Shown one piece after another: positions 20,658-62,483 of a stretch of 64,000 nt of DNA (positions within the stretch are counted from its first letter, which is position 1; every line of letters begins with the position of its first letter). The stretch covers positions 21,059 to 85,058 of the IMG/VR virus record IMGVR_UViG_3300020200_000014; one strand, 5' to 3'. The notes below the pieces were generated by a model. It saw nothing but the letters and a program-made list of their open reading frames with translations. It ran no database searches and was not told the origin of the DNA. The stretch comes from a virus. A program made the translations under genes and the position numbers.

Positions 20658-21350
20658 ATGGAATATATCGACAAAGGAAATGGGAACCCGGTTGTATTAT
20701 TTAGCGGAACACCTTCAGGATCAGATCACATTTTACTCTTTGAAGGTCTTCTAGACAAGTTCAGAATTATTAGCCCTTCTAGACCTGGATATCTAGGAAC
20801 TCCCCTCAATGGTCCAAGCAGCATCACAGATCAAGCTTGGATGTTTTTCGATCTTCTAAATAAGCTAAACATCAACAAAACATCATTATTAGCTCATTCA
20901 GGTGGTGGACCATATGCCTTAGAATTTGTCAAACTATTTCCAGAAAAAGTAGACAAACTAATTCTTTGCTCTGCGTTAGTTAAGCCTGATAAAATTGGTT
21001 TGCTTTCTAGAATATTTTGGCAAAATTGGATTCTAAGATTAGGCGGATTCTTTGCCCCACAATATAAAGCTTATCTCCAATTACTCATGCCAAAAAGAAA
21101 ACGCATAGATGGCTTTAACAATGATGCATATAATTTCAAAAATATGCCAGTCTTTAATTTTAGCTCCATCAATTGCCCAACTCTAATACTTCATGACCTA
21201 AATGACAGCTTTGTTAAGTTTGAACAAGCACAACTAGCCAATCACATTCCAAAATCTATTCTAATGACATTTTCTGGGAACCATTTCTTAACAATTGGCC
21301 CAGATAAAGATGAAGTTTATGAGGCAATGGAAGGGTTTTTGGAGAAGTGA
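20658..21350 (+). CDS. Alpha/beta hydrolase
   Basis: A 230-residue hydrolase. The nucleophile elbow is LLAHSGGGPYALEF (GxSxG as H-S-G-G-G, about residue 79); the acid lies in LILHDLNDSFV and the catalytic His in SGNHFLTIGP. The oxyanion segment is VVLFSGTPSGSD. No signal peptide is visible, so it is cytoplasmic. It diverges from the Sir2-like gene with only 20 bases between starts. Substrate unknown; an esterase or lipase-like role is generic for the fold. Confidence 0.8.
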   Translation: MEYIDKGNGNPVVLFSGTPSGSDHILLFEGLLDKFRIISPSRPGYLGTPLNGPSSITDQAWMFFDLLNKLNINKTSLLAHSGGGPYALEFVKLFPEKVDKLILCSALVKPDKIGLLSRIFWQNWILRLGGFFAPQYKAYLQLLMPKRKRIDGFNNDAYNFKNMPVFNFSSINCPTLILHDLNDSFVKFEQAQLANHIPKSILMTFSGNHFLTIGPDKDEVYEAMEGFLEK

Positions 21351-50654: not shown

Positions 50655-53294
50655 TTATTTATTGAAACTAACAGGACAAGCACCAGTTGCACAATCTACA
50701 TGAGCATAATCAACATCTTCTTGCATAGCTTTCTTAATTTGATTTAATACATCTTCATATTGTGCTTTAGTTACAGGTTCTTCTGGCAAATATTCATAAC
50801 TTGCTTCTTCTTCTTGAGGCATAATTGAACAACATTTAATTTGCTTTTGGTATTTTCTAAATGTCTTCGCAAATTCCATGAAACTAATCTTTTTAGGTTC
50901 ATATTTAAGCGTAAAACTAATTTGTCCCCCACTATCTCTTTTTAGAGGTTCACCATCTTCAGTAACCCCCCTAAGCCAATATTTTTCGCCTAACATGAGC
51001 CATTTATAGTGTTCTTCTGGTCTGCACTCTCCTGCTGTAACTAATTTATCGCCAATATCCAGATTGCAAATTTCTGGTATTGTGGGGAATCCTATGATAA
51101 CAGCATTTTGATATTTTATCAACTCTCTGCAAGGATAACCATTCTTTTTGTAAGCTTCCACCAAAGGATCACTTTTGCTAAACTGCACCCATCGCAAGTA
51201 CCATTTCATTGCTGCAAGATGCCATCCCTCTGTAAGACCAAATAGCTTAGATACAGAACCACTTGGTTTTATGGTAACGTCAGTGTGTGGAGGTAATAAA
51301 CCATATTTAGCACTGTATTTTTCAGCTTCATCTTGTACTGCACGTTTGATTCTAGACAAAAACATCCAAAATTCAGCAGACTTTTCTTCATCTATTAAAT
51401 CTCTAAACCCTAATTTGAAGAATTTCCAGGCAAATTCATGAACGCCAGTTAGTCCTATGCCAATTCTATTTGTTCTTTGAACTTCCTGAGAGTAAATGCT
51501 ATCCATAGTATTTACTCTAATTAAAGCCCTGGTCATGGCCCTAGCTGCTACTTCAACTTCATCAAGAGTATCCGCATGATAAGGAACTAAATCACCAATG
51601 ACACAAAAAGCACCCCAAAGAGCAATGGGAATTTCACTACAATTATGTGATTTAAATCCGTTGCCACAATAACAATTTACTTTTGCAACATTGCAATCAT
51701 AAACTTTTTGTTTACCAATATATTTTATGCTTTTAAATTTATCGACGCTTTTATTGATTAATAATTTGTCTCCTTGTTTGATTGATTGCAATTCTATCCA
51801 ATATCGTTTTTTATTTCTTATTACTAAAAATCTATGGTTTGCTGTAGCTGTTATTGAATATCCTCTATCTATTTTTAATTCAAATACATCTTTTTCACCT
51901 ATCTCTAGAAATCCGTGAGATTTATAGGGCTTTCCATCAACGATAGCATTAAATGGCACGTCAATTAAATCTTGAACCATTTTGGGACCGCCATCAGTCA
52001 AAACCCAGGTATCACCCGTAACACACGGATTGACAATCATCCAGTATTTTTTCTTAAGTGCCTTCTTCAGCAACCTGTTCAAATAAAGGTGCGTATCGTC
52101 ATTAATTTGATATTTTCTACTTCCTACTATCTCCTTTTTAAAATTATCTGTACCTTCATAATTAACATTTAATTTGTCAACATTAATAAACCCTGGTTCG
52201 CCTGTTCCATCGCCATACGCAGCCGTTGTTGCTAATTTAAATACTTTTCTAGCATGTTTGGCCAAACTAGAATCATATTTTGGATTATTTCTCTTAAGTT
52301 CTATTAATTCCCAAAATTCTTTATCAACTAAGATCGAATTATTTGAACTCCACAAAAAACTATTTGGTTTTATGACAAAGTTTTTTCTTGTTTCAATAAT
52401 TTCTTCTACATTTTGTCCATAATATTCAATTGGTCTTTTGATTGTTATAAATTGGAATATTGTTGGGTCTTTCCAATATTTTGTAGACATGCGTGCGCTG
52501 CGCCTAGCACCACCAAAAAGCACACATTCTGCAAAGTAATGATCGACATACATTGATTGCATAAAACGTGGTAAACCGGCCCCTTTAAGAGTCAATGCTT
52601 TTTGAAATGAATTCATAAGGGGAACAGGGCCACTAGCAGGGCGATTTTGCATGCCTTTAATTAATGCCCCTTTGGGTCGCACTTTCGAGAAATCTAAAAT
52701 AAGTAATTTATCTTTATGAATTTTTTCAAAGGCTGCATTTTCCCAAACTTCTAGAGCTTTTGCCCAACCTTCTCTCGTATCTTCGACTTCATACCACAGA
52801 ATATCTTTGCCTTTTCCATATTTGTGTCTTGCATCCCTTACACTTTCATGTGCAGAATAATCATAATCAGGATGCTTATCATCAATTACACACCTTAAAT
52901 TTGGTGCATTATCCCAATTAACCAACATCATATCGTCGTCATAGCTTCTGCCTACTCCTGAACCGGACATCAAGAGATAGAACATTGCAAAACTACTACA
53001 ACTAGTTGCGCAATTCGTAAAAACTTCTTGTGTACGTTCTGGTTGTGTCTCATCGCCATGTTGTAAATGCCGTCCAGACATGATGATGACGGCTTTTTCC
53101 AGATGCTTCTTTAATATCTTATATTCTTCTTTTTGTTCTTCTTTAGAATTGCATAGTAAAGAATTGCCTAATGCGACTCGATTTGAGACATCGCCCCATG
53201 TTTCCCATTCACCGTTCTCTTTTTTTCTTAGTATTGTTCTTTCTGCTACTGCCCTTCCCATTCCAGGATAAAAATCTCTAACAAAATGACTCAT
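50655..53294 (-). CDS. nrdJ: Class II (B12-dependent) ribonucleotide reductase with mini-intein
   Basis: An 879-residue precursor, 751 after splicing. Reductase signatures: FTNCATSCSSF (about 92), SGSGVGRSYDDD, FGGARRSARMS, and NP-C-SEIPI, the catalytic thiyl-radical Cys loop, interrupted by the intein after NP. TIKPSGSVSKLFG is the substrate-loop and DCATGACPVSF the C-terminal redox Cys pair. The enzyme reduces nucleotides with adenosylcobalamin and so works with or without oxygen, unlike T4 NrdAB. Activity requires intein removal. Followed at eight bases by pyrG. Confidence 0.92.
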   Translation of the reverse strand: MSHFVRDFYPGMGRAVAERTILRKKENGEWETWGDVSNRVALGNSLLCNSKEEQKEEYKILKKHLEKAVIIMSGRHLQHGDETQPERTQEVFTNCATSCSSFAMFYLLMSGSGVGRSYDDDMMLVNWDNAPNLRCVIDDKHPDYDYSAHESVRDARHKYGKGKDILWYEVEDTREGWAKALEVWENAAFEKIHKDKLLILDFSKVRPKGALIKGMQNRPASGPVPLMNSFQKALTLKGAGLPRFMQSMYVDHYFAECVLFGGARRSARMSTKYWKDPTIFQFITIKRPIEYYGQNVEEIIETRKNFVIKPNSFLWSSNNSILVDKEFWELIELKRNNPKYDSSLAKHARKVFKLATTAAYGDGTGEPGFINVDKLNVNYEGTDNFKKEIVGSRKYQINDDTHLYLNRLLKKALKKKYWMIVNPCVTGDTWVLTDGGPKMVQDLIDVPFNAIVDGKPYKSHGFLEIGEKDVFELKIDRGYSITATANHRFLVIRNKKRYWIELQSIKQGDKLLINKSVDKFKSIKYIGKQKVYDCNVAKVNCYCGNGFKSHNCSEIPIALWGAFCVIGDLVPYHADTLDEVEVAARAMTRALIRVNTMDSIYSQEVQRTNRIGIGLTGVHEFAWKFFKLGFRDLIDEEKSAEFWMFLSRIKRAVQDEAEKYSAKYGLLPPHTDVTIKPSGSVSKLFGLTEGWHLAAMKWYLRWVQFSKSDPLVEAYKKNGYPCRELIKYQNAVIIGFPTIPEICNLDIGDKLVTAGECRPEEHYKWLMLGEKYWLRGVTEDGEPLKRDSGGQISFTLKYEPKKISFMEFAKTFRKYQKQIKCCSIMPQEEEASYEYLPEEPVTKAQYEDVLNQIKKAMQEDVDYAHVDCATGACPVSFNK
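51642..52025 (-). other. Mini-intein in NrdJ (128 residues)
   Basis: Residues 424-551 of the precursor. Block A is CVTGDTWVLT with the nucleophile Cys1; block B is SITATANHRFLVI with the TxxH; block F/G is KVYDCNVAKVNCYCGNGF then SHN, with the His-Asn pair and Cys as the +1 residue. No endonuclease domain is present and the length is near the minimum for splicing. The +1 Cys is the reductase thiyl-radical Cys, so insertion is at the most conserved point. Confidence 0.88.
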
Positions 53295-53364: not shown

Positions 53365-54678
53365 TTAACTAAAAATATTTCTAGCTAATCGCACAGAAGA
53401 AGTTTGTTGGATTTCTCTCAACCTTATTCTTTTCGGCACAGTGACCGTGCCACTATTGAGTTGAGAAACTATGTCTCTCTCCCCTGTACTTTTTATCATA
53501 ATACCTAATGCTCCATTCACATCAGCATTAAGAGTTTTTCCTACACTTGATTTAAATAATCCCCAAGGACTACGTTTGCCAAGATATTTTTCATGGTAGC
53601 ACATCTTTTCTCCAACAAGATGATCACACTTGGAAGTATATGCTTCGTTTTGAGTTTTAAATTCAATACCATTTAACTGACACTTTGCTTGTAATTTCCA
53701 AGCAAATTTTCCAAATGATAACATTGTAAAATTTTGATTATTACGTTTGCCATTATTTGCACATTTTTGTGCTTTCCAACCTTCTCCAACAATGACATTG
53801 CCAATTTTATTGATTATGCAAATTTGCACAATTAAATTAACATATTGATTTAAATATTCATTAATTTGCCTATTTCTCTTATCACCAAAACCAAAAATTT
53901 TACTGCCATATTTAATAGATTGTTTATCATAGATAGATTGAATTTTGCTTTTTTGTTTGTTGTAATACTGATTAATGGCTTTCATTTCTTTGCCATCTAG
54001 AATAAATGATTTTCCAATATTAGATAGACAAGTTGCAAAATTATCTACTCCAATGTCTATTGATAAAACATTCTTTTTATTTAAGTCATGGTTTTTCTCC
54101 TTTACTTCATAAACAAATTCAATTTCAAACCATTTAGCATTATTTTTAGGTAAAATTCTTACTTCTTTGACTTTACCTGTTACTGTTGGTGGTACAGGAT
54201 AATGAAATTCTTTGAAATTAAACTTACTTTGTAATTCCTTTGGTACTCGTAGCGTGAACCAACCTTTGCCACACCTGTTTTCTAATATAAGATAAATAAA
54301 AACAAAATAGCTATCTTTGGGCAAGTAGCCAGGTATATTAACAGGACGATTATAATTACCACCTTGCTTCTTCTTGAGCAAGCCGAAGAATGAGCGAAAA
54401 CTACGTTCCACTATCTTCATGGTTTGTTGAGCAGCCATTGTTGGCAAATTCTTATATTCTTTCGATCCCTTCATTACATGATAAGCACTGTTATAAGTTA
54501 AGAATTGTCCACATTGAAAAAAGTATTGTCTAGTTTCATAAAGTGTAGCATTGTACAGGTTTTTACTTCTTCTGCAAATTTCTTTGAAGAATTTGAGTTG
54601 TCCTTTACCAATCTTGAGTTTATTTTTTTGAACTTTAAACATCATTTGCCTACTACTAATCTTTTTTGGGTAAGCCAA
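53365..54678 (-). CDS. tnpB: TnpB-type RNA-guided nuclease, near full length
   Basis: A 437-residue protein, AT-rich like the phage, so long resident. RuvC motifs: VLSIDIGVDNFATCLSN (Asp), GNVIVGEGWK (Glu) and NADVNGALGI (Asp). The zinc-finger region (TSKCDHL, KMCYHEK) is diverged from CxxC...CxxC, with one usual Cys pair incomplete. No tnpA or clear IS ends flank it, and it lies in an intergenic site between nrdJ and the gp46-like gene. It may act as a stand-alone TnpB using an RNA from its 3' region, like a homing gene. Confidence 0.8.
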   Translation of the reverse strand: MAYPKKISSRQMMFKVQKNKLKIGKGQLKFFKEICRRSKNLYNATLYETRQYFFQCGQFLTYNSAYHVMKGSKEYKNLPTMAAQQTMKIVERSFRSFFGLLKKKQGGNYNRPVNIPGYLPKDSYFVFIYLILENRCGKGWFTLRVPKELQSKFNFKEFHYPVPPTVTGKVKEVRILPKNNAKWFEIEFVYEVKEKNHDLNKKNVLSIDIGVDNFATCLSNIGKSFILDGKEMKAINQYYNKQKSKIQSIYDKQSIKYGSKIFGFGDKRNRQINEYLNQYVNLIVQICIINKIGNVIVGEGWKAQKCANNGKRNNQNFTMLSFGKFAWKLQAKCQLNGIEFKTQNEAYTSKCDHLVGEKMCYHEKYLGKRSPWGLFKSSVGKTLNADVNGALGIMIKSTGERDIVSQLNSGTVTVPKRIRLREIQQTSSVRLARNIFS

Positions 54679-62223: not shown

Positions 62224-62298
62224 GGCCTGGTATGCAAACTTGGCAAAGCAATCAAGCTCAAACCTTGATGAATATGGGTTCGAATCCCATCTGGGCCA
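62224..62298 (+). tRNA. tRNA with anticodon CAA (Leu), short variable arm
   Basis: All arms are well formed: acceptor GGCCTGG/CTGGGCC (two G-U pairs), D-stem TGC/GCA, anticodon stem TCAAG/CTTGA with loop CTCAAAC (CAA at 62259-62261), 5-base variable loop, T-arm ATGGG TTCGAAT CCCAT, discriminator A. The anticodon reads UUG, but the variable loop is class I, atypical for Leu; a changed Met- or Trp-type tRNA is an alternative. Confidence 0.75.
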
Positions 62299-62299
62299 A

Positions 62300-62394
62300 A
62301 AAATCTCCTGTCCGTGAGGGCATGTGGGTTCGACTCCCACCAGCCGCATTGAACACTAAGCGGCTGTGGCGGAATTGGTATACGCTGGAGACTT
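62300..62394 (+). tRNA. Circularly permuted tRNA-Leu(UAA)
   Basis: The 3' half comes first: AAAA, TCTCC (62304-62308), variable arm TGTCC GTGA GGGCA, T-arm GTGGG TTCGACT CCCAC, acceptor CAGCCGC and A (62348). After 11 bases (62349-62359) the 5' half follows: GCGGCTG (62360-62366), TG, D-arm from GCG to CGC, GGAGA (62387-62391), CTT. The acceptor halves pair over 7 bases and the anticodon stems GGAGA/TCTCC over 5. Joining CTT to AAAA makes loop CTTAAAA with anticodon UAA. The long variable arm fits Leu. The ends abut the neighbouring tRNAs. Confidence 0.75.
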
Positions 62395-62483
62395 GTGTGG
62401 TGTTCCTGACGGCGCTCTGTAAAAGCGTTGGCAACTAAACATGTCAGGTGGATGCCGAAGGGGTTCGATTCCCTCATCACGCA
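62395..62483 (+). tRNA. tRNA-Tyr(GUA)-like, D-arm reduced
   Basis: Acceptor GTGTGGT (62395-62401) pairs with ATCACGC with two G-U pairs. Anticodon stem GCGCT/AGCGT has loop CTGTAAA, the usual Tyr loop, anticodon GTA at 62419-62421. A long variable arm (TTGGCA with TGCCGA) and T-loop TTCGATT follow. Between acceptor and anticodon stem only GTTCCTGACG is present, so the 3' side of the D-arm is missing. It may be a degenerate or unusual functional tRNA. Confidence 0.6.

Follow-up and report, generated by a model that had tools for sequence, protein, structure and literature searches.

The 64,000-nucleotide (nt) window analysed here (positions 21,059 to 85,058 of IMG/VR virus record IMGVR_UViG_3300020200_000014, which are the last 64 kb of a fragment of 85,058 bp) contained, at 62300–62394, a tRNA-Leu(UAA) whose halves occur in reversed order: the 3' half (nt 35–73) comes first, followed by an 11-nt spacer and then the 5' half (nt 1–34). 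This permuted arrangement was confirmed as real. The source is a huge uncultured bacteriophage, the record being a fragment of its genome; T4-like myophage genes were present on the fragment, tail sheath, sheath stabiliser, tail tube, baseplate and terminase among them. On balance, the element was interpreted as a functional permuted tRNA gene of this phage, whose transcript would be released by cuts at the neighbouring tRNAs and closed by an RNA ligase. The locus was composed as follows.

62224..62298, + strand: upstream tRNA-Leu(CAA) (ARAGORN; Rfam RF00005, 54.8 bits).
62299, + strand: one surplus A, separating nt 35 of the permuted tRNA from the presumed RNase Z cut (sequence; loop-length comparison).
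62300..62348, + strand: 3' half, nt 35–73 (sequence, ARAGORN on the joined form, covariance model, folding).
62349..62359, + strand: 11-nt spacer TTGAACACTAA, closing the acceptor hairpin (sequence, folding).
62360..62394, + strand: 5' half, nt 1–34 (sequence, ARAGORN on the joined form, covariance model, folding).
62395..62483, + strand: Tyr-like tRNA element with loop CTGTAAA, acceptor and T-arm stacked over 8 bp, and no D-arm that could be recognised.

The reversed halves, their stems and the 11-base spacer had been proposed in a preliminary description, and re-reading the sequence bore this out. The 3' half begins with loop bases AAAA (62300–62303, nt 35–38) and the anticodon stem strand TCTCC (62304–62308, nt 39–43), and continues through a 15-nt variable arm (62309–62323), the T-arm GTGGG-TTCGACT-CCCAC (62324–62340) and the acceptor strand CAGCCGC (62341–62347) to the discriminator A73 at 62348. 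The 5' half consists of the acceptor strand GCGGCTG (62360–62366), TG, the D-arm (62369–62385), T, the anticodon stem strand GGAGA (62387–62391) and loop bases CTT (62392–62394), corresponding to C32, U33 and U34. When the halves were swapped, they produced a complete class II cloverleaf, with Watson-Crick pairs at 7/7 positions of the acceptor stem, 5/5 of the anticodon stem and 5/5 of the T stem. Sequence and joined form agreed in placing the break between nt 34 and 35, as first described.

The outer ends of the permuted unit lie 0–1 base from the ends of its neighbours, which upholds the earlier remark that the unit is fitted tightly between tRNA processing sites on both sides. Upstream, A73 of tRNA-Leu(CAA) is A62298, one base before the unit; CCA is not encoded and the presumed RNase Z cut falls at this 3' end. 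Downstream, the Tyr-like element starts at G62395, the first base after the 5' half, where RNase P presumably cuts. Five As follow A62298. Joining with all five gave an 8-nt loop and ARAGORN could not name the tRNA, while joining with four (i.e., without A62299) gave a 7-nt loop and a standard call of tRNA-Leu(TAA); hence, the restored loop CTTAAAA with anticodon UAA, predicted at the outset, was recovered with four As but not with the five present. The surplus A62299 is the main loose end: it might be trimmed away or lie outside an RNase Z cut shifted by one base, or the A-run might contain an indel, either natural or from sequencing.

Several results showed that the unit exceeds chance. In place, no ordinary contiguous cloverleaf was found by ARAGORN or Rfam RF00005. 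A permuted-tRNA structural search returned 62300–62394 as the sole site in the window, and 211 Mb of Markov-shuffled window sequence contained no match in which 7/7 acceptor and 5/5 anticodon positions formed Watson-Crick pairs. To build a covariance model, a script rotated 18 ordinary Leu tRNAs, using random spacers as joints and leaving out the window sequence; the model matched the permuted unit over the full model length (92 bits, E = 2.7e-27), and the second-best match in the fragment scored 29 bits. In a set of 48 large phage records the same model scored next highest, at 77.7 bits, on two ordinary tandem Leu tRNAs, and those matches at or below this score that were inspected were either tandem ordinary Leu tRNAs or units resembling Y RNAs. 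High-scoring model matches in tandem Leu arrays (L506, L508, L510, L512, L513, L515 and L516) were dismissed as ordinary neighbouring tRNAs, and L175 likewise had the appearance of a tandem arrangement rather than a permuted case. The rotated sequence alone folded into a cloverleaf (z = -3.5), and the joined 17-nt anticodon arm, GGAGACTTAAAATCTCC, was identical at 17/17 bases to that of an ordinary tRNA-Leu(TAA) from Xanthomonas phage XbC2. Scoring every possible join with ARAGORN was uninformative, nearly any join being accepted, and searching for the acceptor hairpin with a permissive DNA pattern produced chance matches only. An artefact in assembling a tandem tRNA array might be suspected, the contig being metagenomic and ending 1.6 kb from the feature; however, the breakpoints fall at tRNA processing sites and have no long repeat in common to mislead an assembler. 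This explanation was considered very improbable.

The permuted tRNA is probably functional, judging from codon usage and gene content. TTA was the commonest leucine codon in the window open reading frames that were counted (512 of 1141, or 45%), relatives sampled in depth each retained between one and three ordinary Leu(UAA) genes, the 85-kb fragment contained no Leu(UAA) besides the permuted copy, and the outer ends of that copy fall at processing sites. By comparison of SbcC and SbcD (46% and 52% identity respectively), the phage lies close to LR756511, an uncultured phage of 595 kb, and ten IMG/VR contigs were also related by these proteins. In several clade members, class II tRNAs (Leu, Ser and Tyr) are clustered next to SbcCD (L127 13314–16437, and matching regions of L159, L160 and L161). 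In LR756511 the cluster beside SbcCD has Leu(CAA) followed by Leu(TAA), the same order as in the window, but there the Leu(TAA) is ordinary. The preliminary description had suggested checking related phages for the permuted order; a second permuted Leu was absent from approximately 2.2 Mb of clade and related sequence. Several relatives also possessed an odd Tyr tRNA of their own. ARAGORN called tRNAs with anticodon CTA (as Pyl) in W01, G003, G005 and L435; these are possible amber suppressors.

The lack of a permuted Leu in any of the sampled relatives would fit a recent, non-functional rearrangement, in which deletions removed the outer halves of two tandem Leu(UAA) genes and the remaining halves were never joined. 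Tandem pairs of this kind do exist; XbC2 has two tRNA-Leu(TAA) in tandem (L435 3001–3203), which is the state expected before permutation through loss of outer halves. The surplus A and the A-run also fit a deletion scar, the A-run suggesting microhomology at the left joint, and a decayed partial unit stands beside a permuted-like Gly unit in another phage, G005 (see below). Against this, two independent deletions would have been needed, both ending 0–1 base from processing sites while leaving all stems perfect and the anticodon loop exact, and there is no other Leu(UAA) in the fragment despite TTA being the top leucine codon. A neutral scar is the main alternative to a functional gene, although an unlikely one.

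A functional permuted gene requires a route to a continuous tRNA. The break lies inside the anticodon and so the ends would have to be sealed before the tRNA could decode. RNase P leaves a 3'-OH on its upstream product and RNase Z leaves a 5'-phosphate on its downstream product; therefore, cuts at the neighbouring tRNAs would yield ligatable ends at the broken anticodon. Under the proposed mechanism, the permuted unit would be co-transcribed with its neighbours. RNase Z (or an equivalent) would cut tRNA-Leu(CAA) just past its discriminator, and RNase P would cut ahead of the Tyr-like tRNA. The freed piece, 62299–62394, would bear a 5'-phosphate and a 3'-OH, and these two ends would come together at the 34|35 break of the anticodon loop. 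With A62299 trimmed, or the RNase Z cut made one base later, a T4-type RNA ligase (Rnl1 or Rnl2) would close the loop to give a circular pre-tRNA, from which RNase P and RNase Z would remove the 11-nt spacer before CCA addition, as in algae. The product would be a tRNA for TTA, the commonest leucine codon of the phage, and the gene probably arose when Leu(UAA) was duplicated in tandem and the outer halves were then lost. RtcB requires other end groups and fits this scheme less well. T4 Rnl1 joins 5'-phosphate and 3'-OH ends in anticodon loops (PMC3400036), and huge phages carry genes for ligating cleaved tRNAs (PMC7162821).

Release by RNase Z and RNase P followed by ligation had been suggested in the preliminary description, together with a search for an RNA ligase. 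The route is coherent and relatives do encode such enzymes: Rnl1-like proteins with a KVDGS motif in LR756511 and G001, Rnl2-like proteins in five relatives, and RtcB also among relatives. Several observations weigh against the functional interpretation. There are two main weaknesses, the extra A at the join and the coverage of the record, which is an 85-kb fragment with the remainder of the genome outside view. Another intact Leu(UAA), which the preliminary description named as refuting evidence, may lie in that remainder, and an RNA ligase was searched for but not found within the fragment. The permuted Leu occurred in no sampled relative, where near-identical records may be missing from the searches. 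Joining exactly at the neighbouring tRNA ends would leave the 8-nt anticodon loop. The Tyr-like neighbour is unusual as well: its acceptor stem may have 8 bp, a D-arm could not be recognised, neither ARAGORN nor RF00005 called it, and a tRNA-Sec model gave 24.2 bits, which is below the cut-off. Lastly, the weaker second case, in G005, has one mismatch in its acceptor stem and a decayed partial second copy upstream.

That unit is Gly-like and lies in permuted order in the 527-kb G005 (L185 16242–16368, minus strand; about 163.3 kb). Its anticodon stem pairs at 5/5 positions and its acceptor stem at 6/7, while the D-arm is intact; the 5' half ends exactly at the first base of a tRNA-Pro. The anticodon loop is restored on joining, with anticodon ACC if joined at 34|35 or UCC if joined at 33|34, and a flanking stem was not above chance (257 of 300 shuffles were as good). 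It was treated as a suggestive second, weaker case of a permuted tRNA, and no more than that because of the adjoining decayed copy.

By the time of a 2014 review (PMC3978253), permuted tRNA genes had been recorded in one archaeon and six species of algae, and their junctions carried splice motifs. Those of red and green algae and of Thermofilum pendens have the same order as the window, that is, 3' half, intervening sequence and 5' half (Soma 2014, PMC3978253); the accepted algal route passes through a circular intermediate before the spacer is removed by RNase P and RNase Z, and it is class II tRNAs that tend to be permuted. However, the algal and archaeal genes depend on a bulge-helix-bulge and tRNA-splicing endonuclease, whereas the window unit lies in a phage genome, would take its ends from neighbouring tRNAs and has no such motif. 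The preliminary description had seen no archaeal-type splice motif, and its absence was corroborated, since a flanking helix was not above chance (274 of 300 shuffles were as good). Other known systems share single aspects. The group I intron of tRNA-Leu(UAA) interrupts the same site, 34|35, but here there is no intron and the exons are swapped; Rfam group I intron models had no match in the window or around the site. Two-piece permuted transfer-messenger RNA (tmRNA) also has reversed gene order, presumably from duplication and loss of outer parts, yet it works as two pieces with its break away from the anticodon, and tmRNA models reached 16.2 bits on the window site against a gathering score of 47. 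In T4, a phage RNA ligase also seals a tRNA broken in its anticodon loop, when tRNA-Lys is repaired by Pnkp and Rnl1 (PMC3400036); there the break is PrrC damage and needs end healing, while in the window it would be encoded and the ends would already be 5'-phosphate and 3'-OH.

Y RNAs of bacteria and phages, the strongest look-alike, contain the same permuted tRNA domain and were not weighed in the preliminary description. Those of YrlA type (RF02553; Chen et al. 2014 RNA, cited in PMC7790460) share the order T-arm, acceptor hairpin, D-arm; they differ in having a flanking, Ro-binding stem, and most lack an anticodon loop that could be used. Conceivably, the window unit could act as such a tRNA mimic, or as a decoy that diverts nucleases attacking tRNAs, rather than serve in translation. 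A unit in phage contig L223 matched YrlA (33.3 bits, E = 4.6e-5), Leu-type versions of the permuted domain occur in other huge phages, and Ro60/TROVE is encoded by the relative G003 (C1:153323–154177) and by the record of L007. In the window, by contrast, RF02553 had no match at E up to 5, a flanking stem was absent, as the shuffles showed, with no room for one, and no TROVE gene was found in the 85-kb fragment; the joined loop is an exact Leu(UAA) loop, which most Y-type matches lack in usable form. The unit is set apart from Y RNAs by its anatomy, and a mimic or decoy was considered decidedly improbable.

Most candidates for further permuted tRNAs (L223, L233, L363, L355, L507, L509, L514 and L517) had a flanking stem stronger than in shuffled sequence and no usable anticodon loop; they are better regarded as Y RNAs, a reassignment that leaves out candidates L217, L335 and L352 and in which some L233 units were not clear-cut. 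Several of these domains are Leu-type with a long variable arm, and they are probably Y RNAs unannotated by standard tRNA tools. Their positions were:

L507 1189–1280: permuted tRNA-like domain.
L509 755–844: permuted tRNA-like domain.
L517 916–1005, minus strand: permuted tRNA-like domain.
L514 1010–1101, minus strand: permuted tRNA-like domain.
L223 8120–8215 and 8894–8997: permuted tRNA-like domains.
L233 9590–9690: permuted tRNA-like domain.
L363 and L355: further permuted tRNA-like domains.

Elsewhere in the window, 50658–53294 and 53368–54678 comprise a class II ribonucleotide reductase that contains an intein-like segment, followed by an IS605 OrfB/TnpB-type gene.

The preliminary description knew of no permuted tRNA gene in a phage, and the literature searched likewise yielded none in a bacterium or phage. 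The odds appear about even that a mechanism without splicing endonuclease or splice motif operates here, in which cuts at neighbouring tRNAs leave ends within the anticodon that a phage RNA ligase can seal, and that it may recur in the clade, as the Gly-like unit of G005 hints. If true, this would represent a second route to permuted tRNA genes, by way of a phage case lacking a splice motif, and phage RNA ligases would gain a constructive rather than a repair role. It would also reveal a class of tRNA overlooked by standard tools, and may bear on the origin of the permuted tRNA-like domain in Y RNAs.
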